A DNA stretch of 64,000 nt from Halonotius aquaticus (lineage in GTDB: Archaea > Halobacteriota > Halobacteria > Halobacteriales > Haloferacaceae): assembly GCF_003605575.1 (NCBI RefSeq), contig NZ_QKNY01000004.1:1-64000 (forward strand), in the 5' to 3' direction. Position 1 is the first letter of the stretch. Every line of letters begins with the position of its first letter. A program made the translations under genes and the position numbers. Positions 1 through 15,834 of this stretch are shown one piece after another. The notes beneath the pieces are model-generated. The model saw only the letters and a program-made list of their open reading frames with translations, was not told the origin of the DNA and did not search any database.

Positions 1-1
1 G

Positions 2-115
2 ACTGTAGAAGCTGGAAGATCCTGTTCACGACACCTGAACGCTCAGATAGTCACCGAAACCACCGATTCAGCATCGGCTATCGGCAGTGGTGAGCTGCTC
101 GATGTGATCGACTGA
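2..115 (+). CDS. C-terminal fragment of an unidentified protein, cut by the window edge
   Basis: One frame is open from base 2 to a TGA at 113-115 and encodes 37 residues ending in SGELLDVID. The acidic, Ser/Thr-rich tail looks like a haloarchaeal C-terminus, but there is too little to assign a family, and a chance open frame is possible. Bases 116-331 hold no gene and form the upstream region of the next gene. Confidence 0.3.
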   Translation, partial: TVEAGRSCSRHLNAQIVTETTDSASAIGSGELLDVID

Positions 116-331
116 GCCTATTGTCGCTAATACCGTTCGACGATTCATTACAATGGCAATGTATCGATCTATTATGCTTAAAAATCTCCTCTATGTAGCA
201 ATTTTCACGGTGCCCCGAATACGGAACACCATGCTCAGGCGTGGACAGCAGTTCTGACTAACCTATGTTATTTTAATCTGAATTTTCTAACCAATCGTTA
301 CAATTAAAGAACCTTTTCGAATAAGGCCACC

Positions 332-1546
332 ATGACGAAACGTAGGGTTTTACTCTCAAGTATCGCTGCCACAACTGCGGTTAGTGGGTGTTTACGTACA
401 GAATTTGGAGACTCAAATGGAACGTCTCCTGATTCAAACCAAGAAACCTCATCTCCAGAGGGACAATCACTATCTGGGCAAGCTATCGATTGGTCGCAGT
501 ATGGTTATAATGCGGCGAACACGGCATATGTGCAGGAAAGAGTCGGACCCACTCAAATTGGAAACACCCAGAATGGAACAGTAGACGTCAATGATTCCTT
601 TGCGATTTATGACGGCCTCTTGATTGGTGGTGGCAACCAATATGAGCTCCCAATCGAATTGCCAAATGGATCGGAGATCGCCCGGCGAGCCAACCACTCA
701 ATGGCGGTCGATAATATGATTTATTTGAGTGGAAGCAGAGAAGATGGCGTTACGGGATGGGTGGGGGCATTTGAGCTCGATGGCGGAGAAATCTGGAATA
801 AGGATCTTGAACCAATTGATGACGATCGTAGTTTTCCAATGGGAAGCCCAGCTATAGCGGATAATACGCTCTATCAGGCAACTGGAGACGGGATCCTCAG
901 AGCAATAGACGTTGATAGTGGAGAACCCCGATGGCAATACGATTTAGGTGGTCAAAAACAACTGACACCAGCCATAGTCGATGGGGTGACGTATGCAACG
1001 GGAAGTGAAACAGTTGCTATCAATCAATCGGGGGATGTGGAGTGGACCAGATCATTTGAACTTCAATCGTCACCAGTTGTTGAAGGTGAGAGACTGTATG
1101 CCGTAGGAAACGTCGGCTCGTTTGCAGCCGATGACTCAGAACCTTCTGGGGTGATGGGTTTGTACTCGTTAGATACACAGACCGGTTCAATAGAGTGGGC
1201 CACCGAGTTAGGGGGCCTCAATTACGAGGGCCTCCGAAATATCGCTGTAGATGATTCAGCTGTTTATGTGAATACGAATACTTCATTGGCTGCAGTCGAG
1301 AAATCTACCGGTGACATTCAATTCCAATCTGAACTCGATAATTCCGGTGAGGTGATCGTTACAACTGACCGAATTTACACAGTTGGAAAAAGTAGTAGTG
1401 CAGGTTCAATTACGGCTCATTTGAAAGACTCTGGTGAAGAACTTTGGACTGAAGTCATATCATCGCCAATTATGACTGAACCTGTTGTATCAAATAATCG
1501 ACTATATGTTGGAGCAGGAAATGGCTTGCACGTATTCATAGAGTGA
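332..1546 (+). CDS. PQQ-like beta-propeller lipoprotein
   Basis: A 404-aa secreted, lipid-anchored protein. The N-terminus has basic residues KRR, a short hydrophobic stretch and a lipobox (AVSGC, Cys20), followed by a Ser/Thr-rich linker. The rest is built from PQQ-enzyme-type repeats, visible as blades such as DVDSGEPRWQYDLGG, DTQTGSIEWATELGG and LKDSGEELWTEV, expected to form a beta-propeller on the outer face of the membrane. The tryptophan-docking pattern of PQQ repeats does not mean that PQQ is bound; such propellers are usually binding or scaffold proteins. Two similar lipoproteins lie at 2370-3515 and 14278-15456. Codon use is less GC-rich than in the core genes further right. Confidence 0.85.
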   Translation: MTKRRVLLSSIAATTAVSGCLRTEFGDSNGTSPDSNQETSSPEGQSLSGQAIDWSQYGYNAANTAYVQERVGPTQIGNTQNGTVDVNDSFAIYDGLLIGGGNQYELPIELPNGSEIARRANHSMAVDNMIYLSGSREDGVTGWVGAFELDGGEIWNKDLEPIDDDRSFPMGSPAIADNTLYQATGDGILRAIDVDSGEPRWQYDLGGQKQLTPAIVDGVTYATGSETVAINQSGDVEWTRSFELQSSPVVEGERLYAVGNVGSFAADDSEPSGVMGLYSLDTQTGSIEWATELGGLNYEGLRNIAVDDSAVYVNTNTSLAAVEKSTGDIQFQSELDNSGEVIVTTDRIYTVGKSSSAGSITAHLKDSGEELWTEVISSPIMTEPVVSNNRLYVGAGNGLHVFIE

Positions 1547-1600
1547 TAGACTCGATATTTCATTTTACAGAGAATCCAATCAGTGATATTAATTTGGGAG

Positions 1601-1608
1601 GTAGTTTT
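1601..1608. repeat. Left copy of 8-bp target-site duplication
   Basis: The octamer gtagtttt lies directly outside the left end of the IS6-type element and recurs at 2306-2313 directly outside its right end. An 8-bp duplication is what IS6-family transposition produces, so the element entered here by transposition and the flanks have not recombined since. Confidence 0.85.
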
Positions 1609-1610
1609 CA

Positions 1611-1625
1611 TCGTGTTTAGTTAAG
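1611..1625. repeat. Left terminal inverted repeat of the IS6 element
   Basis: Fifteen bases that match the complement of 2289-2303 without mismatch; this end is downstream of the transposase. It overlaps the transposase stop codon, as is common in such compact elements. Confidence 0.9.
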
Positions 1626-2252
1626 CGAATTCCACCAGACTGCGAACGATTGGAGCCATGTTTCTGCGGTTGCTGGTTCGACGTGGCTGAAACTATTGCT
1701 AAACTAAGATGTACGGCGTTTTATTTCTCGAAATATACGTTCGACGGCATTCCGATTTCCATGGCGAACAGTCTGAAATCGGAGTCCTGCTCGGTTCAGT
1801 GCCGCTGAAAGATGGTGCGCATGATCGACGAGAAATATAGCCTCAGACACATCGTGTTTTTCACGGAGTTCTCGGAGAAATTTCTGCGTCAATACCGTTG
1901 TCGTAGTCGTAAACAGCCGAACATGGAGAAATTTGTTTGTCTCTGGATCGACCGCCGCGTACAGCCAATACTGCTGGCCATTGATCCGGATCACCGTCTC
2001 GTCTAACGCGATGTGATCCGGGGTTGCATCGGTGGCTGGCTGTAAATCTGCTTTCTGCACCCAATCGTGAACCGCTTTTCGTGAACGTTGGACACCGAAC
2101 TTCTCAAGTTCTGAGACGGTATTCGAAAGTGATAATCTAGCCAGATGTAACCGAATACCGAGCTTCATCAACTCGCTCGGTGTCCGCTCTCGCTCCACAA
2201 AATCTAATTCAAGCCAGTCGTTACAACCGCTGAGGCGAGTGATTTCTGCCAT
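1617..2252 (-). pseudogene. IS6-family DDE transposase interrupted by an in-frame amber codon
   Basis: Read from the ATG at 2252 (MAEITRLSGC), the frame gives the zinc-finger/HTH-like N-terminus and DDE core of IS6 transposases: ALDET (first Asp), FLVDHAHH (second Asp) and VERIFREIKRRT (Glu). A TAG at 1704-1706 stops it just after the Glu motif. The frame then stays open for 28 more codons to a TAA at 1617-1619 and encodes the usual C-terminus (FSNSFSHVEPA, WLQSFAVWW). Full family length would be about 211 aa; the truncated product keeps all DDE residues but loses the last helix. An upstream in-frame GTG at 2270 is less likely as a start because homologues begin near MxE. Confidence 0.85.
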
Positions 2253-2288
2253 AGACCAGCCGAAATTCACTCCGCCTCAGTTTTCACT

Positions 2289-2303
2289 CTTAACTAAACA
2301 CGA
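2289..2303. repeat. Right terminal inverted repeat of the IS6 element
   Basis: Partner of 1611-1625, about 37 bases upstream of the likely transposase ATG. Confidence 0.9.
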
Positions 2304-2305
2304 CC

Positions 2306-2313
2306 GTAGTTTT
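2306..2313. repeat. Right copy of 8-bp target-site duplication
   Basis: Second copy of gtagtttt, identical to 1601-1608. Confidence 0.85.
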
Positions 2314-2369
2314 GGGCTTTAGGCCTCTCGTAAAAAGTTGATTCTCGTTTTGAAGAATGATAGAGGCCT

Positions 2370-3515
2370 TCACTGATATCGACTGAGATTATCATAGGCT
2401 CGCAATACACCGTCTGAATGGCTAATGAAAACCGATCCAGCATCTACGGCAGGTGATTTCTCGAAGGATTGTGGGAAATCATAGGTATCTCCAATGGTGC
2501 CGTCTTGAGATATTGATGTGATTGCTGATGGTTCGAAAAAGTCACCGGTTGGTACCCAGGTCATCGATTCCTGCGTTGGGGGCTTTGAGGTAAGATGAAT
2601 GGATTCCGGAGACACTGTCCAATTGGTAGTTCCTGTTTCAAATTGGAAACTTACTATGTCTCCGGATACGAGCCAAAAGTTTCCTTCGAACGGGATTGGT
2701 TGTGGAGCACTCGATCCACTTCCTCTTCGTTCGATTTCGTCTTCCCATAAAACAGATCCGTCTGTGCCAGATAAACCAAAAATCTTGCCCTCATTATCAA
2801 CAACAACTATGTCATCGTACAATGTGTAGGCGATTCCCGCACTTCTACCGATGAAGTCATCTGGTGTGAAATCCCAGCGTTTTTGACCTGAATCCTTATC
2901 GAGCGCAAAGACCCGTGTGTCTTTATCACGGTCAGCATCTGGTGAATTCACGTAATCACTTACTGTGGCAAACAGGACGATATCATCACCTATGAGCGGC
3001 GAATAGGTATGTCCGTAACCTGTAGAAATACCACTTTGCCACAGTCGTGGCCCTTCAATACTTTCATACGCAGTAACACCTTCACCAACTTCTTCACCTA
3101 CTACCATCTCAGCTGAAACCGTAGCAAACTCTGCCCCAGGATACCCAGTCATCGCAGCTTGAACCTCACCCGAATCTTTATCGATACGGACTATATCCTG
3201 GTCAGTTTGGGCAACTATCGAATCTTCAAGAATAAACGGATTAGCCATGGTGAGTTCTGAAGATGAAAACTGCTCTGAACTGACACTCCATTCCGTTTCC
3301 CCAGTGGTTCTGTTGATCGCAAAAAGGGACTGGTTGAGAGAGCCAACGTAAACAGTTTCACCATCAGAGACAGGACTTGTTAGGGGAGCATCAGCTTCGA
3401 ATTCCCATGTGGTGCCTGTGAAACCACCATTTGAATTTGATTGTCCCTGCGTAAATTGAATGCAGCCGGAAAACAGTCCAGTCGAACAAGCTGCTAAGAG
3501 AGTACGCCGTTTCAT
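2370..3515 (-). CDS. PQQ-like beta-propeller lipoprotein
   Basis: A 381-aa secreted lipoprotein with an MKRRTLLAAC start, lipobox FSGC (Cys18), a short Gly/Ser/Asn linker and repeats of PQQ-propeller type (INRTTGETEWSV, IDKDSGEVQ, LDKDSGQKRWDF, SGTDGSVLWEDEI). It resembles the proteins at 332-1546 and 14278-15456, so the island carries a small family of these. A TATA-like run (atttaaat, about 3560-3569) lies roughly 50 bases upstream on the coding strand and fits a short-leader promoter. A binding or scaffold role outside the cell is inferred; no catalytic motif is visible. Confidence 0.83.
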   Translation of the reverse strand: MKRRTLLAACSTGLFSGCIQFTQGQSNSNGGFTGTTWEFEADAPLTSPVSDGETVYVGSLNQSLFAINRTTGETEWSVSSEQFSSSELTMANPFILEDSIVAQTDQDIVRIDKDSGEVQAAMTGYPGAEFATVSAEMVVGEEVGEGVTAYESIEGPRLWQSGISTGYGHTYSPLIGDDIVLFATVSDYVNSPDADRDKDTRVFALDKDSGQKRWDFTPDDFIGRSAGIAYTLYDDIVVVDNEGKIFGLSGTDGSVLWEDEIERRGSGSSAPQPIPFEGNFWLVSGDIVSFQFETGTTNWTVSPESIHLTSKPPTQESMTWVPTGDFFEPSAITSISQDGTIGDTYDFPQSFEKSPAVDAGSVFISHSDGVLRAYDNLSRYQ

Positions 3516-3835
3516 AATCTTGGTGTGCTAATCAGTATCCGATGTTTCTGATCCATTGATATTTAAATTACCTTCTTGTGCAATGTTTGAAACTCATCTT
3601 GAGACCCCACCGAATCAATTCCCTGGGTGGATTCTCGTCGGGTAAGCTGGCAGTTTCACAATACAACTAAGCCTTCGCTATTTTTGAACTATACCGGAGG
3701 TATCCGATGGGTAGCAGCCTTTAGTTGGTCTTTTCTGGAGAACTGAACCTACAACCTGGCATCAACATCATTCATATTGACTTACTGAGCAAGACAATGG
3801 AATACAATCGTCCCGCACTGCGCATAACTCGATTG
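3516..3835. other. Intergenic region, 320 bp
   Basis: No convincing gene on either strand. It contains the probable promoter of the leftward lipoprotein gene (minus-strand TATA-like sequence near 3560-3569) and the region downstream of the large coiled-coil gene. No terminal repeats of a mobile element are evident. Confidence 0.5.
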
Positions 3836-5812
3836 TTATCCTATATCGATCGCTAAGCCGTCTTCATCGATATAGAACTGTTCCCCATCGCCGTTGCTTT
3901 CGACGCGATCGAAAGAGCGTTTCACCACATGGCGATCGTAGTCGGTTTCGTTAGTGATCTCTTGGAGCATGACCGTTTCACGGCCCAGATCAGAGACATA
4001 CTCTGATTTGAGGTAGGCGTAACAATCATCGACAGCCTCAGTCTGGACAGCCCGCTCGAACAAGCTAATGTTTTCAGCGACGACCGGGTCAGCAGGATCG
4101 TAGATCAACTCGCCATTACGGAGATCAACCAGACAGACACTGACGTGGCGGCTGAAGCGTGTCCGAGCGAGTTCGTCCTCTTTGACCAGATTCTGCACGC
4201 GATCGGTCCAGCCAGTCGGTGAGGCGATCCCCAATAGATACGGGGTTTCCTGATTTGAGGCTTCACGCACCGCATCGTTGACGAAACCAAGGAGATCATC
4301 CAAATCAGCGGGTGTCGCGTCGAACCCATTAATCGCATGGGCCTCCAGATGGGAGGCCACCGTGGCTTCGATGATCATTTCAGTGGACTCACTGAGCCCC
4401 ATGTACTTGCTTTCGGTAATCGTGTACCGAGCGGTTGGGTTGGTAGGATGCGTCCCGGACAGTTCTTTGTCGTGCTCTTGGAGGAGGTTCGTCATCCGGG
4501 AGGCTTCATTGCGGCGTTCACTCCGGCCATCCCAGTAGTCATGTGGGACCTCAAAGGTGTCATTGGGCATGCGAATCGATTGAACTTCGAACATGCCAGT
4601 GTCGAACCGCCCCATGTAATCCATCTCAAAGAGTCGGGCCGTAGAGGCGGTCACGACGTCTTTGCCTTCCAACCCTCCCGTGTCGTCGACGGATGTTTCG
4701 ACTTCCTCAACTCGTTCTTCAAGCGATTGCTGGCGTTCATCGAGTCGATCCCGAGCGGATTCGATCTCCTCGCGCTCAACTTGGAGGCGGTCGATTTCGT
4801 TTTTGAGTTCAGACCGCTGTTCGGTGAGTCGCTCGAGTTCCGCTTCGACAACTTGGGCAGCTTGTTCCCCTACCTCTTCGCTGCCGGACTTGACGGCTTC
4901 CTCTTTGGCGGTTTCTAACTCTGTAATCTTCGTATCCAACTGCGTTTCGAGTTCTTGGGTTCGAGAGATGGCATCGTTCAACTCAGCCAACGCGTCTTCA
5001 TCGATGGTATCGATATTCTGAATCTCAGCGCGGATGTCCGCAGCATCGACGGTTTCACTCGCCACCTGCCGTTCGACCCGGCTGATTTCTGTTTGGATTT
5101 GAGTGCGCTGCCGTTCGAAGCCACGTTCGAGTGAATCTTCCAGGTCGGTCAGCTCCTCGCGGAGGGCGTCCTGGATCTTCTCTCGTTCGTCGGTGGAATC
5201 GGAGACTGCTTCGATGGCGTCTTCGATACTTTCGACAAGGTGTTCCAGCCCGTGAGTTTCGACGTAGACGAAGAAGCCTTGCCGAATCCGCTCGCGGCGA
5301 TCGTCATACCGTTCGACGAGTCGTTCGATGACCTCTTGTTGGACCTCCGGATTCTCTATCAGTTTATCCATGTTGGCGATCTGCGTGGAGGTGTATTCCT
5401 GCACCAGTTCGTACACTTCCCCTTCCATCCGGCGGACCTTCTCTTCGATTTGGTCTTCATCGAGTGCATCGAACTGTTTGAACCGGTCGAATTCGACGAC
5501 CGCTTCCAGTTCTTTCTCGATGAAGTCTCCCTGCATCGCGGTCGGAACTTCTGACTCCTTGTAAAAGCTGGCAGCCAACAGTAACCGAGCCAATGTCAAC
5601 TCCCCAGCCGCCCGTTGACGGGCATCTTTCGAGAGGAAGTCAGGACACTCCTTGCCGAAGTCCCAACGCAATTCCTCTTCATCAGCCTTGATTTCGTTGT
5701 ATTTCTCGATTCGTGATCGATCCGGCATTCTTGTGAGACCGGCCAAGTCACGATCAAGAACTCGATTCGCCGTGTATGTGAGTTCATCAAATTTCTCTTG
5801 ACAATCAGTCAT
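3836..5812 (-). CDS. Large coiled-coil protein of the ESCRT-like/AAA/FHA/PP2C cluster
   Basis: A 658-aa protein read from the ATG at 5812 (MTDCQEKFDE); the frame stays open further upstream, but only as a shadow of the neighbouring gene. Residues 1-200 are mixed helical. Residues about 205-375 form a long charged coiled coil with regular Leu/Ile heptads. Residues about 385-658 form a globular C-terminal domain (GIASPTGWTDRVQNL, VCLVDLRNGELIYDP) that I do not recognise. There is no signal peptide or membrane segment. It begins 4 bases after the stop of the 177-aa gene, so the two are probably co-transcribed, and both diverge from the AAA/PP2C operon. A scaffold or effector role is inferred from context only. 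Confidence 0.8.
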   Translation of the reverse strand: MTDCQEKFDELTYTANRVLDRDLAGLTRMPDRSRIEKYNEIKADEEELRWDFGKECPDFLSKDARQRAAGELTLARLLLAASFYKESEVPTAMQGDFIEKELEAVVEFDRFKQFDALDEDQIEEKVRRMEGEVYELVQEYTSTQIANMDKLIENPEVQQEVIERLVERYDDRRERIRQGFFVYVETHGLEHLVESIEDAIEAVSDSTDEREKIQDALREELTDLEDSLERGFERQRTQIQTEISRVERQVASETVDAADIRAEIQNIDTIDEDALAELNDAISRTQELETQLDTKITELETAKEEAVKSGSEEVGEQAAQVVEAELERLTEQRSELKNEIDRLQVEREEIESARDRLDERQQSLEERVEEVETSVDDTGGLEGKDVVTASTARLFEMDYMGRFDTGMFEVQSIRMPNDTFEVPHDYWDGRSERRNEASRMTNLLQEHDKELSGTHPTNPTARYTITESKYMGLSESTEMIIEATVASHLEAHAINGFDATPADLDDLLGFVNDAVREASNQETPYLLGIASPTGWTDRVQNLVKEDELARTRFSRHVSVCLVDLRNGELIYDPADPVVAENISLFERAVQTEAVDDCYAYLKSEYVSDLGRETVMLQEITNETDYDRHVVKRSFDRVESNGDGEQFYIDEDGLAIDIG

Positions 5813-5816
5813 GGTA

Positions 5817-6350
5817 TCACTCCGATTGGCTGGCTGCGTAATCCCCAAGCTCAGTTTCGAAAAAGTCCCCAAGGAACTCCGGAGCTGGGGGGATCCCATC
5901 GACACGAATTCTGACGACGACAATGTCGCCAGCAGTATCATCAAGCTCGTACGAGACTTCCGCACGACCCTTTTTGGTGTACATTTCGTATTCGTTTCTA
6001 GACCCAGATTGGAGTACTGCCTTCTTTTTGGACAGGATGTATTCCAAAAACGTCTCAACTGCATCAAGCGACGCCGATATTTCTTCAGTGACAGTAATCG
6101 ATTCGGATTCCACCTCTGGGGTTGTGGGTTGCAGCCGATAGACCCCGATTTGTTCGCTTGGGACTTTAGCAACCAATTCTTGGTACAATTCCTCATGGTC
6201 AACCCCCTCTGCAATGCGGGCAAGTCCCTCTGGCGTCTCGATGTCCCCCTCATTCCAATTTTTGAACAGATACTCCACCCGCTTCCGTTCGGCTTCTTCG
6301 GTGTATTGAACGGTATACAAATACCGTTCAGTATCGTCATTTTCAGCCAT
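5817..6350 (-). CDS. Uncharacterised 177-aa protein, first gene of the leftward arm of the cluster
   Basis: A soluble acidic protein (MAENDDTERYLYTVQYTEE) with predicted alternating helices and strands and no familiar motif. The C-terminal half (residues about 85-165) looks like a compact alpha/beta fold (EISASLDAVETFLEYILSKK, then GDIVVVRIRVDG). Its ATG at 6350 is 268 bases from the first gene of the rightward arm, so the intergenic space probably carries divergent promoters. The close spacing with the coiled-coil gene downstream suggests the two proteins act together. Confidence 0.75.
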   Translation of the reverse strand: MAENDDTERYLYTVQYTEEAERKRVEYLFKNWNEGDIETPEGLARIAEGVDHEELYQELVAKVPSEQIGVYRLQPTTPEVESESITVTEEISASLDAVETFLEYILSKKKAVLQSGSRNEYEMYTKKGRAEVSYELDDTAGDIVVVRIRVDGIPPAPEFLGDFFETELGDYAASQSE

Positions 6351-6617
6351 GGATTAGTTGGTGGAGCTTCCTGTCTGTGAGGGAAACCATTGTTGGATGG
6401 AATGCCGAGTGGTTCATGTCTGGGTACTGCATCAGGATGTTTCTACATTTGTCCCATAAATAACTATCTCTATCTCGGAGTGAGGGACACAAATAAATTA
6501 CAACGAAATAGATTATAGTTAGTCTATCCATTCTGGAGAAAACTACAAAATTACGTTCGGTACAAATCTTTAAGTGGTAATGGTATGACGGGTTAAGCGG
6601 GTGACACAAGACAACAA
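6351..6617. promoter_or_regulatory. Divergent promoter region of the ESCRT-like cluster
   Basis: 267 AT-rich bases between the two arms. A TATA-like sequence on the minus strand (cataaataac on the plus strand, about 6455-6464) could serve the leftward genes, and tctttaag near 6567-6575 could serve the rightward operon starting at 6618. An 88-codon minus-strand frame in this space has an unusual composition for this genome and is not called. Confidence 0.45.
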
Positions 6618-6896
6618 ATGAGCGTGATGCTATGGACAGTTGGAGCGTTCGTGGTGAACCTCCTGCTTGGGATTGGCCTCCTACTTGGCGTGTACAAATT
6701 CATGGAACGCCGGGTCACCTTGGGGGCTCTCTCAGGCATTGTCGTTGGAACAGGGGTCATTTACGCGCAGGCGACCCTCGGAGAGCAGTGGCTGACGGTC
6801 ACGGTTAGTGAGATGAAACTCCTCGTGATCGCCGCCTGCTTGGGGGCAGTTATCGGCGTCGTTGGGACCGTCTTGACGGTCAAACCAGACCTCTGA
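6618..6896 (+). CDS. Small membrane protein with three predicted transmembrane segments
   Basis: A 92-aa protein, mostly hydrophobic. Helices are at about residues 3-27 (LLLGIGLLLGVYKF), 34-52 (LGALSGIVVGTGVIYA) and 66-88 (LLVIAACLGAVIGVVGTVL), with a single basic loop (MERR) after the first. It is the first gene of the rightward operon, 50 bases ahead of the ESCRT-III-like gene, and could be the membrane anchor or target of the complex. The family is not recognised. Confidence 0.7.
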   Translation: MSVMLWTVGAFVVNLLLGIGLLLGVYKFMERRVTLGALSGIVVGTGVIYAQATLGEQWLTVTVSEMKLLVIAACLGAVIGVVGTVLTVKPDL

Positions 6897-6946
6897 ACGT
6901 ATAGTCAAAAAAAAAAATAATAACCTCACAACATACAACACCGATC

Positions 6947-7603
6947 ATGGAACTACGAAACTGGGTTCAGGACCGATTTGGCACCGCTGATACAGAATCA
7001 CTGCTTGACGAGAGCGTCTACAGTCAAAAGGAGCTACGGAAAGATAAGACGAAGCTCGAACAGAGCATGAAACAGGTCGAAAAGGAGATGGAAAAACATC
7101 AAAGGAAGTACGAGAAGCTCATGCAAAAAGGGGCTGAGGCCGATGAAATGAAACGCAAGCAGTACGCCCAGAAGGCCAAATTCGAGAAAAAGAAGTACAC
7201 CATCAAGAAACAAAAACACAAACAGAAGAGCGTCAAGCTGGGGACGATCATTTCGATCGAAGGGATGCGTGAAGTGATGGACATGCAGAGCAATGAGGCC
7301 GATATCACGCTCACTACTGTTCTCAATGATGAGATGAACGCCCAAGAGCTGCAGGGGCAGGTCATGGAGCAGATGGCAGAATTCGGTCTTGAAATGGAGG
7401 ATATGAAGGAAGTCCAGGAAGCTCTCGATGTGGAGATTCTGGATCAAGAGCTCCAGACCGAAGAACCGGAGGAACTCGAACTGATGGAAGAGATGGCCGC
7501 AGGCGAGATGTCGTCCGAACAGATCGATATCGAAGAAGAAGTAAATGGTGACACGGAGACGGACGATATCGATATCGACATCGAACAGAATCAAACGCTG
7601 TAA
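6947..7603 (+). CDS. ESCRT-III/PspA-like helical protein
   Basis: 218 aa, almost entirely helical. Residues about 28-98 form a strongly basic long helical hairpin (KELRKDKTKLEQSMKQVEKE, KFEKKKYTIKKQKHKQKS). Residues 100-165 are amphipathic helices, including ISIEGMREVMDMQ and VMEQMAEFGLEMEDM. The last 60 residues are very acidic, with a Leu/Met-rich stretch (EELELMEEMAAGEM) that could act as an MIT-binding motif. A basic N-terminal hairpin, a hinge and an acidic regulatory tail are the layout of Snf7/CdvB and of PspA/Vipp1. The next gene encodes a Vps4-like ATPase with an MIT-like domain, which supports the reading. A generic coiled coil remains possible. Confidence 0.7.
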   Translation: MELRNWVQDRFGTADTESLLDESVYSQKELRKDKTKLEQSMKQVEKEMEKHQRKYEKLMQKGAEADEMKRKQYAQKAKFEKKKYTIKKQKHKQKSVKLGTIISIEGMREVMDMQSNEADITLTTVLNDEMNAQELQGQVMEQMAEFGLEMEDMKEVQEALDVEILDQELQTEEPEELELMEEMAAGEMSSEQIDIEEEVNGDTETDDIDIDIEQNQTL

Positions 7604-7628
7604 TCGCCTTCGGCTGTAACTTCAATTC

Positions 7629-8792
7629 ATGTCGCTCAAAAAGAATGCCCAGAAGAAACACTTAGAGTCCGAGTACGAACGGTATCGGTCACAGGCTGAA
7701 ACCGCTCGCAGCGAGGATCACTACGACAAAGCCGCCCGCTACTACAAGGAGTGTGTCGACGTCTTAGAACAGTGGGCAGAGTTGGAATCAAACGAGTCAC
7801 TCAAACAAGAGCGGTTAGAGCTGGCTGAAAATCTCAAGGCAGCAGCGAAGAAACTATCCAACGGTGAGGCCCTCACCAGTGACTCCTCACCATCAGGGGG
7901 CTCATCCTCAGGGTCCAGCGGCAGTGGCTCGACCAGCGACCGACGTGACAGTCAACCACAGGGGCAACCTGATGACGACGACGAAATCGATCCCACCTCC
8001 TTCCTTGAAGATACCCCCGAGATGGATTTCGGCGATGTCGGTGGGATGACCGATCTGAAAGAAACCCTCAAAGATCAGGTGATCGACCCACTGAAACGCC
8101 CTGAGTTGTACGAGGAGTATGATTTAGGCGTCGTCAACGGGGTGTTGATGTACGGCCCGCCAGGAACCGGGAAGACCTTCATCACCAAGGCGTTGGCTGG
8201 TGAATTGGAATACAATTTCATCGAAGTGCAGGCCTCCGATATCACCAGTTCACTCGTCGGTGAAGCGGCGAAAAACATGGAGGAGGTCTTCGAAGTCGCA
8301 CGCAACCACCAGCCATGTCTGCTCTTCATGGACGAAATCGATGCCATTGCCGCCGAGCGTGAGGGCAGTGGCAACAAGACGATGAGTGAAGGGCAGATGA
8401 TCACGCAATTCCTGACTGAGATGTCCGACATCAAAGGTGAGGACGTGATCGTTGTCAGTGCAACCAACCTGCCTGATAGCATCGATGGGGCGGCGTGGCG
8501 GCGGTTCGATGAACGAATCGAAGTTCCGCCACCAGATGCCACGGCGAGGGCCGCTGTCCTGCGGGTACATTTGCGTGATCGGCCCGTGTTGACTGACAAA
8601 ATCGATTGGGACGAAATCAAAGCCCTGACCGATGGGTATTCCTCCAGTGACTTGGAGATCATCGCTTCGAAAGCCGCACGAAGCGCGCTGAAAGAGGCCC
8701 GCTCAGAGGATGAAATAGTCCCAATCACCCAACATCATCTTGAAACCGCAATCGAAGAAACAGAATCCAGTCTGGAAGCTTGGGAGGGATAG
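7629..8792 (+). CDS. Vps4/CdvC-like AAA+ ATPase with MIT-like N-terminal domain
   Basis: 387 aa. Residues about 5-77 form a three-helix bundle with the MIT-type signature of a tyrosine-rich second helix (HYDKAARYYKECVDVLEQW). A Ser/Gly-rich and then acidic linker spans 80-125. The AAA+ core follows: FGDVGG at 134-139, Walker A GPPGTGKT at 176-183, Walker B LLFMDEID at 231-238, sensor-1 SATN ending at 280, and arginine fingers in AAWRRFDERI (291-292), close to the Vps4/katanin form. A C-terminal lid helix (YSSSDLEIIASKAARSALKE) ends the core. One AAA domain plus MIT is the Vps4 layout; Cdc48-type proteins have two. Expected action: ATP-driven remodelling of the preceding gene product. Confidence 0.85.
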   Translation: MSLKKNAQKKHLESEYERYRSQAETARSEDHYDKAARYYKECVDVLEQWAELESNESLKQERLELAENLKAAAKKLSNGEALTSDSSPSGGSSSGSSGSGSTSDRRDSQPQGQPDDDDEIDPTSFLEDTPEMDFGDVGGMTDLKETLKDQVIDPLKRPELYEEYDLGVVNGVLMYGPPGTGKTFITKALAGELEYNFIEVQASDITSSLVGEAAKNMEEVFEVARNHQPCLLFMDEIDAIAAEREGSGNKTMSEGQMITQFLTEMSDIKGEDVIVVSATNLPDSIDGAAWRRFDERIEVPPPDATARAAVLRVHLRDRPVLTDKIDWDEIKALTDGYSSSDLEIIASKAARSALKEARSEDEIVPITQHHLETAIEETESSLEAWEG

Positions 8793-9527
8793 ATGAAACG
8801 GTATTTGATCCCCATTCAGGAAGCCAGCCAGGCAGAAACCATTGAACGGATTCCTGTTACAGACTCGCCAGTCGGACTTTACCGAAAAGACAATGGCAAC
8901 TTCGATGTCGTGGCGGAAGCTGACGATCGGATCTATGATCTCGGGGTTCGAGATGCTGGGGTATCTCGGAAATCCAATGGCCAAGCCCCAGTCGAACTGA
9001 GTGCAAGTACCCGCGGGATCAACGTGGAGAATCTAACGAGTACGAATCCAATCCTCGTCGAGACAGGCCCTGGACAAACAGAATTAGCGAAAGGGGAATT
9101 CATTGAGATCACCGATGATTGTGTCATTGAACTCGGAATCGGTGTGAAAATCCGCGCGAATGTGCGTGGGACTGTCGATGAATCCGAGTCTCAAGAGGTG
9201 GTCACAAAAGAAGAGTCTCATCGCCAGGAGGGCCCCGAAATCACTGCCTATGTGCAGACCGCCGGCGAATTGATTCGGAAAGAAGTCGAAAAGGAAGCTG
9301 TGACTGAATGTCACACCCACATTCAGACCCTCTATGATACGATCATCGAATGTCCTGTCGATGATCAGGCCTACAATAAGGTGGAATCGGATATGGAACA
9401 TGTGCTCCAACGACTGGATAATAAAGTCACGAACGCAACACTGTCTGAAACCGATATCGCAGATGAGTTCCAGCACGAAATCGTTTCACTGACAAATAGG
9501 GTCGAATCTCTGTACGCGAGGCACTAA
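8793..9527 (+). CDS. FHA-domain-like protein
   Basis: 244 aa, starting directly after the ATPase stop codon. Residues about 25-125 show the order of FHA landmarks: a serine-containing turn (GVSRKSNG), an LTSTNPILV segment equivalent to the ENLGSxNGT loop, then LAKGEFIEITDDCVIELG, matching the LxxGDxIxLG end of the fold. Residues 150-244 are helical (AELIRKEVEKEAVTECHTH, then a second hairpin). FHA domains bind phosphothreonine, so this could be the reader of a phosphorylation signal erased by the next gene. The first conserved Arg/Gly motif is weak, so structure comparison is needed to confirm the fold. Confidence 0.65.
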   Translation: MKRYLIPIQEASQAETIERIPVTDSPVGLYRKDNGNFDVVAEADDRIYDLGVRDAGVSRKSNGQAPVELSASTRGINVENLTSTNPILVETGPGQTELAKGEFIEITDDCVIELGIGVKIRANVRGTVDESESQEVVTKEESHRQEGPEITAYVQTAGELIRKEVEKEAVTECHTHIQTLYDTIIECPVDDQAYNKVESDMEHVLQRLDNKVTNATLSETDIADEFQHEIVSLTNRVESLYARH

Positions 9528-10237
9528 TGAATATCGCAGCCCAAACTGACGTCGGTCAGGAGAAGACGACGAACGAGGACGCAATCACGACAACCGAGTT
9601 TGAGTCGGCACACTTGGTGATTGTTGCCGACGGAATGGGCGGACATGCAGCCGGCGATGTGGCCAGCGATATGGCGACGTCGACCATCTCAGAGACCGTC
9701 GCGACGGCTCTGGGTAACGGGAGAGAAGATTTTGAATCGATTCTCGATGACGCAATCACGGCGGCTAATGAAGAAGTCCACGAGTATGCAGCGGCTGAAG
9801 ACATTCATACGATGGGCACGACCGTCGTTGCCGCGATTCTCACCGACGATGACATCGTGATTGCCAACGTCGGGGACAGTCGGGCATACAATGTTGGGGC
9901 GTCGCTTGAGCAAATCACTGTGGATCACTCGCTGGTCCAAGAGTTGATTGATGAAGGGGAAATTACGCCTGAAGAAGCGAAAACCCACCCTCAAAGGAAT
10001 GTTATTTCCCAATCGTTAGGGACAGAATCGTCTGTGAGTCCGGACTTCTACCAACCGGATATCGATGACTATCTACTCATGTGTTCTGATGGTCTGACTG
10101 AGGAAGTCGATGAAGAGAGCATCTACGACAGTATTAATTCATCGGCGTCACTTGGTGCTACTGTCGATGACTTGGTTACGACGGCCAATGACAACGGTGG
10201 CTCCGATAATATTGCAGTTATTCTCGCTGCCTGTTGA
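9527..10237 (+). CDS. PP2C-family serine/threonine protein phosphatase
   Basis: 236 aa, overlapping the FHA gene by one base (TAATG), so translation is probably coupled. The motifs of soluble PP2C enzymes occur in order: Asp8 with TTNED (residues 14-18), VADGMGGHAAGD, MGTTVVAA, ANVGDSRAY, DHSLVQELIDEGEI, CSDGLTEEVD and DNIAVIL. All metal-binding aspartates are present, so the enzyme should be active. It has no membrane segment. PP2C with FHA normally acts opposite a protein kinase; none is encoded in this cluster. Confidence 0.93.
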   Translation: MNIAAQTDVGQEKTTNEDAITTTEFESAHLVIVADGMGGHAAGDVASDMATSTISETVATALGNGREDFESILDDAITAANEEVHEYAAAEDIHTMGTTVVAAILTDDDIVIANVGDSRAYNVGASLEQITVDHSLVQELIDEGEITPEEAKTHPQRNVISQSLGTESSVSPDFYQPDIDDYLLMCSDGLTEEVDEESIYDSINSSASLGATVDDLVTTANDNGGSDNIAVILAAC

Positions 10238-10567
10238 GTGTGGGTATGGTAGCAACCCACTACGAATGATCTGGTCTCCTGGAATTCTGAGTGGATCCTC
10301 AGTGGCAAATGAAACAATTTTGTTATCGGGCGTCACCGTCGCTGATTCATTGGATGGAAGTAGCTGAGTGTGAACACGCAGAACATTCCAATGTTGCGGT
10401 TATCAATGCCAAATGAGAAATAGTCAATTGCAAGATGCAATTGCCCTATGCAGCACCTTATGAAGGTTTAGTTGGAAATACGCGCCTAAGCAGTAGTTTT
10501 ATATTTCGTAATTAAAAATTATATCGACATTTTTAGCCAGCCGTTATCATGTCGTGCTGTCGCTGGG
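10238..10567. other. Intergenic region, 330 bp, with a hairpin after the PP2C stop
   Basis: Three bases past the stop codon a 6-bp inverted repeat (gtgggt/acccac, 10240-10260) could form a terminator or processing hairpin. The rest is AT-rich. Near 10500-10520 it carries TATA-like sequence (tatatttcgtaattaaaaat) that probably drives the lipoprotein gene after it. No convincing coding frame. Confidence 0.5.
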
Positions 10568-11242
10568 TTGCTCGGTGGGTTTATATCGATCACAGGGGGT
10601 TGTCTCCGGTTTCAAGACAGTGAAACACAATCACAACAGAGTGAAACACAAACGCAAGAGGCCATAACAGGTACCATTCCGGTCAATCGCTACGAACCAC
10701 TCGGCGACGAAATCCGGAGCCAAAGCCAACAGGAGTTCCGCAGGGACGCAGACAAATTAGTTTTGAAAGCAGGCGATAAAGATGCCACAGAAGATGATCT
10801 TGAAGGCGCGATGGTTGCTGCAGAAGTCACTGTCGGGACCACTGAAAACCGGGTTGATCTCTCCAACGTTGCCCAAATCGTGTATACATTCAGGCACCGT
10901 TCAGATGCGTCAGAAGAAACGTACGCTGATGACCTGGACACTCAACACAGATCGTATCCCGGTATCGCTGACGAAATATATCGTGTCGACCGCGACTCGG
11001 TGGAAGCCGCAATGGCCGGCTATGAGGAGGACATCCGAGGGGTGATGCTGAACGATTTCGAAGATACAGGCGAGACGACACGCACTATCAATGTCGAAGA
11101 TATCGACGGCGGTCGCAACATTGGCATCGGGGTTGAGGTCAGTTCTGACTTCGCCCAAGAGGTTACGCTGGAAGTGTTCAGTGTCCGCGGAGAAGATACG
11201 AATGGGAATGAGGTGCTCCATCTCGTCACTACGGAGGAATAG
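10568..11242 (+). CDS. Secreted lipoprotein of unknown function, start codon damaged or non-standard
   Basis: The frame encodes a lipobox (SITGGC) followed by a Gln/Ser/Thr linker and about 190 acidic residues with no recognised domain. The only in-frame start is TTG at 10568, which would leave 11 hydrophobic residues with no basic n-region before the cysteine. Reading further upstream in frame gives LSCRAVAGLLGGF, a good twin-arginine-like signal, but with no start. An ATG at 10549 lies out of frame with it by a small indel. Either a frameshift has just removed the true start, or an unusual start is used. The body of the protein looks intact. Confidence 0.6.
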   Translation: MLGGFISITGGCLRFQDSETQSQQSETQTQEAITGTIPVNRYEPLGDEIRSQSQQEFRRDADKLVLKAGDKDATEDDLEGAMVAAEVTVGTTENRVDLSNVAQIVYTFRHRSDASEETYADDLDTQHRSYPGIADEIYRVDRDSVEAAMAGYEEDIRGVMLNDFEDTGETTRTINVEDIDGGRNIGIGVEVSSDFAQEVTLEVFSVRGEDTNGNEVLHLVTTEE

Positions 11243-11246
11243 TGTC

Positions 11247-11468
11247 ATGGAAAGTCTCCCAAGTGAGGCCGCAGGGTTTGGAAACTGTGTCCAGCAGTAC
11301 CACCGCTTGCAAGGCGTATTCATCGCTCTTTGTCTTCGCGTTGTCGTTGCGGTCACTAATTACGAACGAGAAGATGAAAACGAGTGTATCGGCGTTCACT
11401 TCGAAGTCGTAAGTGAGACCGAACTTGATGCGTTTACACGTTCAAAATGTCTCTCGGAAAACCCATAG
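11247..11468 (+). CDS. Hypothetical 73-aa protein
   Basis: An ATG 4 bases after the preceding stop opens a 73-codon frame (MESLPSEAAGFGNCVQQYHR) ending in an acidic stretch (NYEREDENECIGVHFEVVSE) that reads like real haloarchaeal protein. No domain is recognised. Overlapping frames give less plausible products. Bases 11469-11738 appear to be non-coding. Confidence 0.4.
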   Translation: MESLPSEAAGFGNCVQQYHRLQGVFIALCLRVVVAVTNYEREDENECIGVHFEVVSETELDAFTRSKCLSENP

Positions 11469-11738
11469 ACCACCGGGTGATCTATCGCGTCCGAAACGAG
11501 CAATCCTACGCTTGTTCTTGCATCTGATTCAGTCACATACTGAAAGAGTAATCGCAGTCATGCTGCTGCATACCTCCTCTACATCGGTCACTCGGCTACC
11601 TATCAGCTACCAAATGAGAGGATTCGCCGAGTGATAAATACAAGGTGCGTATTTTCCAGGATGTTTCAGTCATATAAATCTGAGAATATCCATGCAAATT
11701 CCACAAATCAGTATATAAGCCTGCTTATTCCCCCGAAG

Positions 11739-13025
11739 TCACTGGGTTAGACGACGTTTCAAAAGATACCCAAATCCGCCGAGGGCAGCAACCGTACCCC
11801 CTACACTGAAGCCCGGGACTTCTGACTCGGAAACTGATTCAGAATGATTCTGACTGCTATCGGTACGATTCCTGCTTGTCGAAGGAGTCTTGTTGTCATC
11901 AGAATCGGTCGCTGTTGCAGCCGAATCCGTCTGCCCCGACAGATCGAATGTTGCGACCACCCCTGCATGATCTGAGGGCCAGAGTCGAACCATTTCGCCG
12001 TCGGACTGGATCGTGATACGGTCATCGGGACGGTGACCCACGCGACCGATGGCAGTTGGGTGGAGATCGCCACGGTAGAGCGTGCCGTCGATGCGTCGAT
12101 CCAATTGTGAGTCATCGTTTTGGAGATCGGCAGCCTGACAGCAGGTACTGCCGTTAGCGTCCGGACGGAGGGCAGCGTAGGGATCATTGAGGGTCTCTGT
12201 CAGCAACCCATACGTTTCCGTCTCGGCTCTTGGGCCGCTATTAAAATCGCCACACAGGATAACCGGTCGATCCGAGGGGAGTATGGTAAGTAATTCCTCT
12301 GCCTGCCGCCGCCGGGGTTCCATGGCAGTCGATTCGAGATGGGTTGTGCTGACAGTAAGATCGACTCCTCCGACGCGGATATTCGCAGTGCAGTATCCTC
12401 GATGCAGTGTCACGTCCCCGGAGTTGGTCGGGATTTTGACCGTAATCGTCTCATCAAAGGTATCGGCTACAGTCTCAGTCACCTCTACTCCCTCACGAAC
12501 CAGCAGGGCGTCTCGATCTGCAAGGTCAAGGGTCACCTCCCCATCGGACAACTCCCCGGAAAGTTCGATGTCGGTCGTGACCGTGTCAGCCGCCACACGA
12601 TAAGAGAGGTCGCGGTCTTCAAGCGCGGATACGATGCGCGTCAAAAAATTGAATGCTAGTGCCTCGTCGTCAGTTTCCCCCGGCCGTTTTGTACGGAGCT
12701 GTCCGGCCTCCTGCAAGCCGACAATATCTGCCTGCTGGGATTCGATTTCTGCAGCGATAGCCTCTGCACGCGCCGCGTAGATAGTGGGATCGAAATCATT
12801 CAAAAACCGGCCGATGCGAGCGTAAAATTCCAGGTTTGATCCGGCCTGTAACAGGTTAGAGAGGTCGACACCGAGGTAGGCGTTTCTTGTCATGACTGTC
12901 ACCGTCGAGGCTGGCGAGGTGGCTGCAGCCCGTGAGATGGCCCCGACCCCAGCGGTCAGCCCAGCAACACTACCAAGAACCGCTCGACGACTCGTCGTCG
13001 ATTGGGACAACTCCGAGATATCCAT
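11739..13025 (-). CDS. Secreted endonuclease/exonuclease/phosphatase-family enzyme with PGF-CTERM anchor
   Basis: 428 aa from the ATG at 13025 (MDISELSQ). A twin-arginine signal (TSRRAVLGSVAG) ends near an Ala-rich cleavage site. The EEP fold follows with its metal and catalytic motifs: MTRNAYLG, IVGLQEAGQL (Glu), STTHLES (His), ILCGDFNSGP (Asp/Asn) and PSDHAGVV (Asp/His). A Thr/Ser/Asp-rich stalk leads to PGF, a hydrophobic helix and KRRL at the C-terminus, the archaeosortase A substrate signal. It should therefore be exported folded and anchored to lipid outside the cell. The substrate may be DNA, a phosphodiester or a phospholipid; the sequence does not decide. Confidence 0.88.
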   Translation of the reverse strand: MDISELSQSTTSRRAVLGSVAGLTAGVGAISRAAATSPASTVTVMTRNAYLGVDLSNLLQAGSNLEFYARIGRFLNDFDPTIYAARAEAIAAEIESQQADIVGLQEAGQLRTKRPGETDDEALAFNFLTRIVSALEDRDLSYRVAADTVTTDIELSGELSDGEVTLDLADRDALLVREGVEVTETVADTFDETITVKIPTNSGDVTLHRGYCTANIRVGGVDLTVSTTHLESTAMEPRRRQAEELLTILPSDRPVILCGDFNSGPRAETETYGLLTETLNDPYAALRPDANGSTCCQAADLQNDDSQLDRRIDGTLYRGDLHPTAIGRVGHRPDDRITIQSDGEMVRLWPSDHAGVVATFDLSGQTDSAATATDSDDNKTPSTSRNRTDSSQNHSESVSESEVPGFSVGGTVAALGGFGYLLKRRLTQ

Positions 13026-13405
13026 ACCGACGTGTTTGGAGGGTTTGAATAAAGCTACTTTCCCTGAAATCAATACTATAATTTGATCATGAATCCCAAC
13101 CGATTAACCGATTCGGAGACGCTCCCCTTTCGTATCGATAGATCACCGGCCGTGAGTGACATTCGGATAGCATTACTTTTCCTGTCGGTGCGTTCCCGAG
13201 GTTCTCTGAATCGGCTGTGAACATCATTTACAAAATAGAAACCATATCAGGTGTTGTTTTTCCATAATTAAGCGAAGCAACGGTCATAATAGAATATTGT
13301 TATTCATTGATGTATGATATGTGAGCTCTACATTCAGCAGTCATTAATTTGATTCGTCAGCGATATGCTGCCTTTCACTTCGCTGGATTGCCGTTATGAC
13401 CGTGG
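13026..13405. other. Intergenic region, 380 bp
   Basis: AT-rich space between the leftward nuclease and the rightward recombinase remnant, with TATA-like runs near 13262-13320. A 43-codon frame at 13089-13220 is open but has no supporting composition or signal and is not called. Confidence 0.45.
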
Positions 13406-14110
13406 ATGACAGACGATTATCAGCAGTCGAGCGAATGGGCCCAACAGCATCGGGAATCGTTGACCACGCGACATACCCACGAGGATGTCCTCACAGATCG
13501 AGAGTTCGAATTGCTGTTGGAAGCATGCAGTTCACTCCCGGAGCCAAAGGATCCACAAACACGGTTCGTGTGTCTGGCAGCTGGTAGGCTTGGGCTCCGA
13601 GCCGGTGAGATCGCTCACTTCCACGCAGAGTGGCTTGACTGGGATCGGATGCTCCTCCGCATTCCGCAACACGAACCCTGTGAGTGTGGCTACTGTCGGC
13701 GGCAAGCAACACAAGAGACGACTCATAACGAGGAACTCACACACGAGGAAGCGATGGAAGCGAGGTGGCATCCCAAGACAGTGGCCTCCGCGCGGTCTAT
13801 CCCAATCGATCTCTCGCTTCGGTTGGAACTGTGTCTGGAACGGTTCACCAACCAGTATGAGGCGTTTCCCCGGTCGCGCAGTGCTGTGAACAGACGAGTG
13901 ACGGCCGCCGCCGAGGCAGCAGACATTGACGGCCGAGTGTATCCGCACGCTTTGTGAGCGACTGCAGCCAGCTATCACGCATATCAAGGGGTTGCACCGG
14001 TTCCGCTCCAAGCACTGATGGGCTGGAACGATTTGGCAACGGCACAGAAGTATATCCGCATTTCAGGTAGAGCGACAGCCGACGCTCTCCGGCAGGTTCA
14101 CTACCGATAA
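13406..14110 (+). pseudogene. Tyrosine recombinase (phage-type integrase), inactivated by a stop at the second catalytic arginine
   Basis: The frame encodes a short haloarchaeal integrase: LAAGRLGLRAGEIAHF holds the first catalytic Arg, a Cys-pair insert (CECGYC) follows, and the protein then reaches VYPHAL. The next codon is TGA (13955-13957) exactly where the HxxR motif needs Arg; CGA to TGA is a single transition. The frame then continues with LMGWND (His/Trp box) and TAQKYIRIS (nucleophilic Tyr) to TAA at 14108-14110, 235 codons in all. The intact family member would be about 234 aa with no N-terminal SAM-like domain. Truncation before the Tyr makes the product inactive unless the stop is read through. 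Confidence 0.88.
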
Positions 14111-14277
14111 CGCCAGTCACATATCTATCACTTCTCAACGTGACTGCTGAATAAAGGGCGCGTATCTGTACACTGAGTGGTAGCAATAGTAGCAGGCCAG
14201 AAATGTTGCAACAGATTAGGTAAGAGTTGAGAATGCTTCTGTGGCCCCTCCTCTGGTACAAATAATGGGTTCTGAAG

Positions 14278-15456
14278 TCAGAAATTGATAGAATACCCTG
14301 TGACGGTATCGCCACCGATCACGAGTTCATCACTTGCAACGGCGATATCTTCACCATCGAGCGGTTGGGTCGACCGATGTACTATTTCTCCTGTCGAACG
14401 ATCATAACCTGTCAATCCAGTTTCTCTATCACCCACCCAAACGTGGGATGCAGAGGTGTCGATAGCCCTGACTGCGCCAGTGATACTTGTAGTCCATCGT
14501 TCCTCGCCGGACTCCCTTTCCAAAGCATATATATCGCCTTCATCTGCCGCGGCTACAACGAGAGAGTTATCCACGGCAAGGGGGGCATCGGGCCACCCTG
14601 TGTCTGAGTATGACCACTCGAGACCGTTTGTACCAATCGGATATGCGTGAACACCCTGTGGTGCACAAGCAAAGAGAGTTTCACCGTGAACATGACCCGT
14701 TGACCCGCCCCAAGCAGCATAGGTAATTGACCAGGAATCTTTCGAGTCGATCACTGTCCCGTCCGTTTTATTGAGGACCTTCGTCCCGCCTCCCCAGCCA
14801 AGGTAGATATCTCCATCGTGGCTCCCGACATAACCGAGCTTCAACATTTCATGTTCATCACGACTTTTTGCCCATAGTTCTTCTCCGGTGTCGACATCAA
14901 TACCCCAAACAAGTGGGTCTTGCTCACCATCCAGCTGGCCGCCTTTTTGCCTCGCCCCCACCACTGCGATGTCTCCTGAGATCGTCGCATCAATCGGAAA
15001 ATTGTGTTTACCGTCAGAGGGGGCTTCAGAGACCCATAATTCTTCACCAGCCCTATTATATGCGTGGAAATGGCCCCCCTGTTCGGGGTTCTCTGGACTA
15101 AACCCGAAAAGTATGTATTGACCCTGTTTTGCAAATGCTGGTTCAGGGCCGGTGGACTGAATGTTCGGATGAGTGACTTCACGAGACCACTCAAGGCCTA
15201 CATCGCCGAGTGCGTGACCAACTGCCCCCCAATCGTTCCAATAGAATTTGCCTTGATCCACATAAATGTGTGACGCTCCAATCGGATCACTCCATGATTC
15301 CGTGAGTGAAACATCACTTCCCCCAGTTGAGCCTGTTTGGGTTTCCTCATTTGGATCAGTAGCCTCCTGAAGCCGGAGACAGCCAGAGATGCCAGATGTA
15401 ATTAGTCCCCCCAGTATCAACATCTGTCGTCTACCGAAGCCCCTTTCGTGAGTCAC
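14278..15456 (-). CDS. PQQ-like beta-propeller lipoprotein
   Basis: 392 aa if the GTG at 15456 is used (VTHERGFGRRQ); the frame is open to 15519, but the extra residues spoil the signal. GRRQMLILGG followed by lipobox ISGC (Cys26) gives a twin-arginine lipoprotein signal. PQQ-type repeats follow (DVDTGEELWAKS, LNKTDGTVIDSK, LERESGEERWTTS, YDRSTGEIVHRS). It is the third such protein in the island. It probably acts as an extracellular scaffold or binding protein; no catalytic residues are apparent. Confidence 0.82.
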   Translation of the reverse strand: MTHERGFGRRQMLILGGLITSGISGCLRLQEATDPNEETQTGSTGGSDVSLTESWSDPIGASHIYVDQGKFYWNDWGAVGHALGDVGLEWSREVTHPNIQSTGPEPAFAKQGQYILFGFSPENPEQGGHFHAYNRAGEELWVSEAPSDGKHNFPIDATISGDIAVVGARQKGGQLDGEQDPLVWGIDVDTGEELWAKSRDEHEMLKLGYVGSHDGDIYLGWGGGTKVLNKTDGTVIDSKDSWSITYAAWGGSTGHVHGETLFACAPQGVHAYPIGTNGLEWSYSDTGWPDAPLAVDNSLVVAAADEGDIYALERESGEERWTTSITGAVRAIDTSASHVWVGDRETGLTGYDRSTGEIVHRSTQPLDGEDIAVASDELVIGGDTVTGYSINF

Positions 15457-15759
15457 ACTCCGGTATGAAAATTCTTGCAATAAATCACTACTGCACCCAG
15501 CGAAAGCGATAGATTCCACCCAGCAATACCTACGAGTGACTGTTTTCTATTTACAATTCAATATTTGAGTACTGTATTAACCCTCTATATCTTGCACAGC
15601 TTGATCTCTCAATTTAGGGACAGATACCGCTATTCGACTGTGCCCAGTAGAGTGGTAACTGAAGCGCGCGCTATTTCCCGGCAGCATTCTCCGTATTTTG
15701 TAAAAGTTTCTTGAAGAAGGTGAGTGTGTGAAAATAGGGCGGTTTGCCCGTAAATCTCA

Positions 15760-15834
<75 letters not shown>

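Follow-up and report, generated by a model that had tools for sequence, protein, structure and literature searches.

Comparative genomics led in 2024 to the prediction of an ESCRT clade named Halo_FHA, whose haloarchaeal members combine a Vps4 ATPase, an ESCRT-III protein and an FHA protein whose C-terminus is CdvA-like (Makarova et al. 2024, mBio, PMC10936438). According to the text of that paper, some of the loci also contain arCOG09748 (coiled coil, winged helix), arCOG08177 (Cas2-like, TBP fold), kinases and phosphatases, the helical domain at the C-terminus of these FHA proteins shows limited similarity to CdvA, and the proposed function is the sorting of phosphorylated proteins. We found no experiment on any such haloarchaeal ESCRT system in the literature.

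The window analysed here comprises the first 64,000 nucleotides of contig NZ_QKNY01000004.1 from Halonotius aquaticus. It contains a gene of 218 codons whose product is, with a probability of about 0.8, the ESCRT-III subunit of an archaeal ESCRT system of the Halo_FHA type, a reading that is based on its predicted helical hairpin, the adjacent Vps4 with MIT-like and AAA domains, and the published Halo_FHA loci with the same genes. Since the gene set fits the published description, the locus is a further and rather complete member of a kind of system that is already known. A first-pass annotation of this DNA had regarded the protein as an outlier among haloarchaea, which were taken to lack CdvB, but patchy haloarchaeal ESCRT systems have already been described.

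Gene content of the locus

The ESCRT-III-like gene and its surroundings contain the following features (window coordinates):

332-1546, plus strand: PQQ/beta-propeller protein, possible lipoprotein (PF13360, E 4e-21)
2370-3515, minus strand: PQQ/beta-propeller protein, possible lipoprotein (PF13360, E 3.4e-28)
3836-5812, minus strand: coiled-coil protein of 658 aa resembling arCOG09748 (C-terminal winged helix, ESCRT-II-like), kept at the same place in 19 of 20 loci
5817-6350, minus strand: protein of 177 aa resembling arCOG08177 (inactive Cas2-like plus TBP-fold; relatives, alignment)
6618-6896, plus strand: small hydrophobic protein of 92 aa, probably a membrane protein (locus conservation, alignment)
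6947-7603, plus strand: ESCRT-III-like protein of 218 aa (ATG at 6947, stop codon at 7601-7603)
7629-8792, plus strand: Vps4/CdvC-type ATPase of 387 aa with an MIT-like and one AAA domain (profiles, tree)
8793-9527, plus strand: protein of 244 aa with FHA and C-terminal helical domain, the arCOG13166-like signature of Halo_FHA (AlphaFold, Foldseek)
9527-10237, plus strand: PP2C Ser/Thr phosphatase, STP (NF033484 Stp1, PP2C_2)

The gene for the 92-aa protein ends 50 bp upstream of the ESCRT-III-like gene and the ATPase gene starts 25 bp downstream of it, followed by the FHA and PP2C genes at 0 bp and -1 bp, respectively, from the preceding gene. The ESCRT-III/Vps4 pair is found together in at least 18 of the 20 loci, and the 92-aa protein, which is without a family match, immediately precedes ESCRT-III in 11 of them. 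The genes for the 177-aa and 658-aa proteins run divergently from this cassette. Clustered relatives of the 177-aa protein occupy the same position in 11 other loci, and the similarity of the 658-aa protein, which is without a Pfam match, to SMC/Rad50 is confined to the coiled coil. From position and size, together with the published description of the former and the architecture of the latter, we infer that they are arCOG08177-like and arCOG09748-like, respectively.

The FHA gene that characterizes the clade adjoins the Vps4 and ESCRT-III genes also here. Its product is modeled by AlphaFold (pLDDT 82.6) as a beta sandwich followed by four helices, and the best of the Foldseek matches to FHA domains is that of ArnA (5a8i, E 6.8e-4, probability 1.00). 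The phosphatase scores 256 bits against NF033484 Stp1 (cut-off 230) and matches PP2C_2 with an E-value of 1.9e-17. Of the accessory genes, the STP is present, and no Ser/Thr kinase gene was found within the ESCRT cassette of this locus. A third PQQ/beta-propeller protein, probably a lipoprotein, is encoded at 14278-15519 in the window; such proteins recur near related loci, at a frequency that may or may not exceed chance.

A further contig of the genome contains a second ESCRT locus of the Halo_FHA type (L021, G000:C16:116000-133000), and its ESCRT-III-like protein is 67% identical to the one described here. This locus has a Ser/Thr kinase gene beside the FHA gene and encodes a shorter coiled-coil protein, the 177-aa and 92-aa proteins were not detected in it, and its type is common to congeneric genomes. 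In two related genomes (L035 and L036), a pair of ESCRT-III-like genes separated by about 5-6 kb stands around a more distant Vps4-like ATPase. A protein with a zinc ribbon and an SPFH/Band-7 domain is located near Vps4 in five loci (L123, at 5067-6845; L031; L032; L124; L125), and SPFH proteins are reported in the text of Makarova et al. 2024 (PMC10936438) for Meth_adaptin loci.

Sequence and predicted structure of the ESCRT-III-like protein

The open reading frame extends from ATG to stop exactly as first annotated. Homologs without internal stops were identified in 16 of the 170 family genomes and 24 of the 391 class genomes (about 6% of the sampled Halobacteria), and the GC content at the three codon positions is 0.60/0.22/0.63, which together identify it as a real, conserved gene rather than a chance reading frame. 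The calculated net charge is +4 for residues 27-64 and +9 for residues 65-114, followed by -16 for residues 115-172 and -19 for residues 173-218. With -35 in the C-terminal 104 residues, a basic hairpin is embedded in an otherwise very acidic protein, and the tail contains EELELMEEMAAGEM at residues 174-187, so that the basic hairpin and acidic tail of the first-pass annotation were correctly recognized.

An AlphaFold2 model built with 15 sequences places the main elements as follows:

7025-7138, plus strand: alpha1 of the predicted hairpin, residues 27-64 (pLDDT about 81-92)
7145-7288, plus strand: long basic alpha2(/alpha3), residues 67-114 (pLDDT about 72-89; residues 65-114 net +9)
7466-7507, plus strand: conserved acidic Leu/Met-rich tail segment EELELMEEMAAGEM, candidate Vps4-binding (helix 175-184, conservation)

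The hallmark of the ESCRT-III superfamily is a hairpin of alpha1 and a joined alpha2/alpha3 (PMC8281802), and the prediction contains it, with helices at residues 27-64 and 67-114 (pLDDT about 72-92), as anticipated when a structure prediction was first proposed for this protein. The model output consists of helix boundaries without coordinates, and we take the two long helices to be packed antiparallel because they are joined by a two-residue turn and because of the fold matches described below. A short N-terminal helix precedes the hairpin, and a disordered linker follows it. In the superfamily, this elbow leads into alpha4 and then alpha5, which swaps onto the hairpins of neighbors. The helices in residues 115-172, at positions 133-145 and 150-160, are both of low confidence, and a further helix is predicted at residues 175-184 in the acidic tail. 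In the model, the order of the helices is that of ESCRT-III, PspA and Vipp1.

None of the Foldseek matches of the model in PDB reached E <= 0.001, and the best match at the level of the superfamily had an E-value of 0.68. Nevertheless, 22 of the 50 matches listed belong to the ESCRT-III superfamily, including Vipp1, CHMP1B/IST1, Asgard ESCRT-IIIB, Snf7, Shrub, CdvB2, CHMP4B and CHMP2A-CHMP3. This enrichment supports the ESCRT-III reading but falls short of proof, since long helical hairpins resemble many things. The protein could instead be a coiled-coil adaptor or substrate of the Vps4-like ATPase, forming a hairpin that neither polymerizes nor remodels membranes, with the ATPase acting on it as an unfoldase or disaggregase. 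The nonsignificant fold matches, the poorly predicted alpha4-alpha5 region and the missing ESCRT-III profile match (see below) would all be compatible with such a protein. However, the gene order is the same as in ESCRT systems with a recognized ESCRT-III, a basic hairpin stands out in a protein that is otherwise very acidic, and the fold matches are enriched in the ESCRT-III superfamily, which together make the adaptor explanation improbable.

Profile searches and the relationship to PspA

The first-pass annotation had proposed searches with the Snf7 (PF03357) and PspA (PF04012) profiles, and these gave no match in the protein or its 14 homologs. Searches of Pfam, NCBIfam and PDB sequences with the protein or its alignment revealed no convincing family, and the family profile found no ESCRT-III chain among the PDB sequences. 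The missing match carries little weight, because the Snf7 profile remained below its cut-off in all 295 genomes of the phylum and also in Sulfolobus acidocaldarius; it gave no match in the genome studied here. The Snf7 and PspA profiles are thus insensitive for archaeal ESCRT-III, and a Snf7 match is an aid to detection rather than a defining trait. A methanogen protein encoded directly upstream of Vps4 matched Snf7 over nearly its whole length, with an E-value of 3e-4 that was below the cut-off. The comparison of our family with the methanogen ESCRT-III set was not significant in profile-profile searches, even with 21 diverse members, and the comparison with one euryarchaeal Snf7-like pair gave a probability of 9%. 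A profile search of PDB started from the methanogen set did not recover ESCRT-III chains either. The case illustrates that the Snf7 and PspA profiles are unreliable for detecting such proteins.

The profile-profile comparison with haloarchaeal PspA gave a probability of 32.8%, as compared to at most 0.3% for ten column shuffles. This link is suggestive, and by our reading the alignment register falls on the region of the hairpin tip. Together with the superfamily-level likeness of the fold to Vipp1, it could mean that the protein is a divergent PspA/Vipp1 paralog with a Vps4-independent role in protecting the membrane under stress. We regard this as very improbable, given that the PspA profile does not match the protein, that a canonical PspA is encoded on another contig (PF04012, E 1.4e-34), and that the gene is tied to those for Vps4, FHA and PP2C. 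The protein had initially been described as ESCRT-III/PspA-like. The first half of this description is well supported by the predicted hairpin, the Vps4 and the Halo_FHA gene set, while the second half applies at the level of the superfamily only, since the genome contains a separate, true PspA.

The Vps4-type ATPase and the acidic tail

The ATPase begins with the following domain:

7629-7868, plus strand: MIT-like domain, about residues 1-80 of the ATPase (hhalign)

The AAA domain of the ATPase is recognized by Pfam with an E-value of 5.5e-38, and the protein matches the CdvC model with an E-value of 8e-54, below the curated cut-off, and yeast Vps4 (5uie) with an E-value of 3e-52 over residues 31-363. 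The similarity of the N-terminus to MIT (PF04212), the three-helix domain of Vps4, is weak and below the cut-off (E 0.013), which is alike in the methanogen Vps4 (E 0.011). In hhalign, the N-terminus aligned colinearly with the N-termini of methanogen Vps4 (probability 68%, E 5e-5) and with those of other haloarchaeal Vps4 (probability 96%, E 4e-9), as compared to at most 1.8% in the reversed control. Judged from these alignments, the protein is an ATPase of the Vps4/CdvC type, and its N-terminus is probably a divergent MIT domain. In the phylogeny, the Vps4 family was separated from most Cdc48/PAN/FtsH-type sequences of the same genome (support 95/96), and the single AAA domain is of the Vps4 type rather than the Cdc48/PAN type. 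The placement of two further AAA proteins of the genome, which have long branches and group within or close to the Halo clade, is uncertain. The closest non-ESCRT relative in the genome is an AAA protein of 469 aa with a hydrophobic N-terminal region (42%; L129, G000:C4:525-1388).

A C-terminal MIM1 or MIM2 motif is found in many, but not all, ESCRT-III members. The conservation of the tail segment at residues 174-187 is similar to that of the hairpin, with a majority-residue fraction of 0.64 as compared to 0.42 for the loop at residues 115-132. Regular expressions for canonical MIM1 and MIM2 found no match in the acidic tails of the 15 members, and the tail is almost free of proline. The MIT-interacting motif of the first-pass annotation therefore stands as a conserved acidic segment but not as a canonical MIM1 or MIM2, and from its conservation we hypothesize that the segment is a non-canonical MIM.

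Location in a low-GC block

The cassette is located inside a block of low GC content, about 0.46-0.55 (about 50%) over the first 16 kb of the window as compared to about 0.62 beyond it. Two features are placed in or at the edge of this block:

13406-13957, plus strand: short integrase-like ORF of 183 aa, candidate remnant of an island integrase (PF00589, E 2.6e-4, below cut-off)
15760-15834, minus strand: tRNA-Glu, whose 3' end is the edge of the low-GC block (GC change; flank homology)

In three congeneric genomes, homology to the flank starts at the 3' end of the tRNA-Glu gene, at query base 20, which is window position 15759. This is as expected after integration, and positions 1-15760 probably represent an integrated island that is open towards the start of the contig. 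A search for a second attachment site of the island gave none, the contig ending at base 1, and no relatives were found on plasmids or viral contigs. The placement of the gene in an accessory region, as first annotated, agrees with the GC shift at the tRNA-Glu. An IS240-type transposase-like ORF is also located within the block. The low GC content raised the question of a transfer from another genus. However, the Vps4 phylogeny places this copy beside those of congeners with moderate support (91/79), and we therefore name no donor.

Proposed function

By analogy with ESCRT biology, the basic face of the hairpin would bind to acidic lipids in the cytoplasmic membrane, and the ESCRT-III-like subunits would polymerize side by side into a polymer that may be nucleated by the 92-aa membrane protein, the arCOG09748-like coiled-coil protein, or both. 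The FHA protein might read cargo or partners that a Hanks-type kinase, whose gene lies elsewhere, has phosphorylated on threonine, and the PP2C phosphatase might reset them. The MIT-like domain of Vps4 could then grip the helix of the conserved acidic tail, with the hexamer pulling subunits from the polymer. On balance, we lean slightly towards a role in budding or sorting that is controlled by phosphorylation. In Haloferax, the formation of vesicles has been attributed to a small GTPase (PMC10927574), and an ESCRT system would therefore represent an additional rather than a general route.

Cell division is unlikely to be the main role because the genome encodes two FtsZ-like proteins, for which the assignment to FtsZ versus CetZ is by score only, as well as other tubulin-family proteins. 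A component of a Cdv-like division ring, acting with or instead of FtsZ, is the least probable explanation, since the CdvB/CdvC-like pair and the limited CdvA similarity reported in the text of PMC10936438 for the helical C-terminus of the FHA proteins are set against these tubulin-family genes, the accessory location and the presence of the gene in only about 6% of the sampled genomes of the class.

As a tentative proposal, with the odds against it, Halo_FHA modules may move between haloarchaea on tRNA-associated islands and be stackable, resulting in two differing ESCRT systems per cell, with the 92-aa protein dedicated, in a role not described so far, to anchoring the archaeal ESCRT polymer in the membrane or nucleating it. 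For the ESCRT system that we favor, the locus suggests that a salt-loving archaeon that divides by FtsZ also carries a compact ESCRT set for membrane cutting on probably acquired DNA. Several haloarchaea are genetically tractable. A locus as compact as this, with polymer, ATPase, phospho-reader and phosphatase, would permit a direct test of the predicted Halo_FHA ESCRT, and of whether ESCRT outside the TACK and Asgard archaea serves phospho-regulated budding or sorting instead of division.

Comparison with known systems

The system is most similar to Halo_FHA (PMC10936438), with which it shares the haloarchaeal host, an ESCRT-III gene upstream of a Vps4 with MIT-like and AAA domains, the FHA protein with a helical domain and the STP, as well as the arCOG09748-like and arCOG08177-like genes as matched by position, size and description. 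It differs in that the cassette is without a Ser/Thr kinase and located on an island beside a tRNA-Glu gene, and in that the same genome contains a second, differently composed locus. The 92-aa membrane protein upstream of ESCRT-III is a further difference, as we found no mention of it among Halo_FHA systems in the paper's text.

Similar to the CdvB/CdvC systems of the TACK archaea, the locus encodes an ESCRT-III and Vps4 pair with a predicted hairpin, and the CdvB2 filament is among the Foldseek matches listed; unlike these systems, it is without a recognizable MIM2, and FtsZ is present, so that division is explained without it. The euryarchaeal "Main" clade of the methanogens also has ESCRT-III directly upstream of Vps4 and a related N-terminal domain in Vps4, but the ESCRT-III sequences are not demonstrably alignable and the Vps4 proteins are about 30-35% identical. 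The likeness to PspA/Vipp1 lies in the predicted fold of the superfamily, a hairpin followed by short helices, while the PspA profile has no match here and the genuine PspA of the genome is encoded separately.
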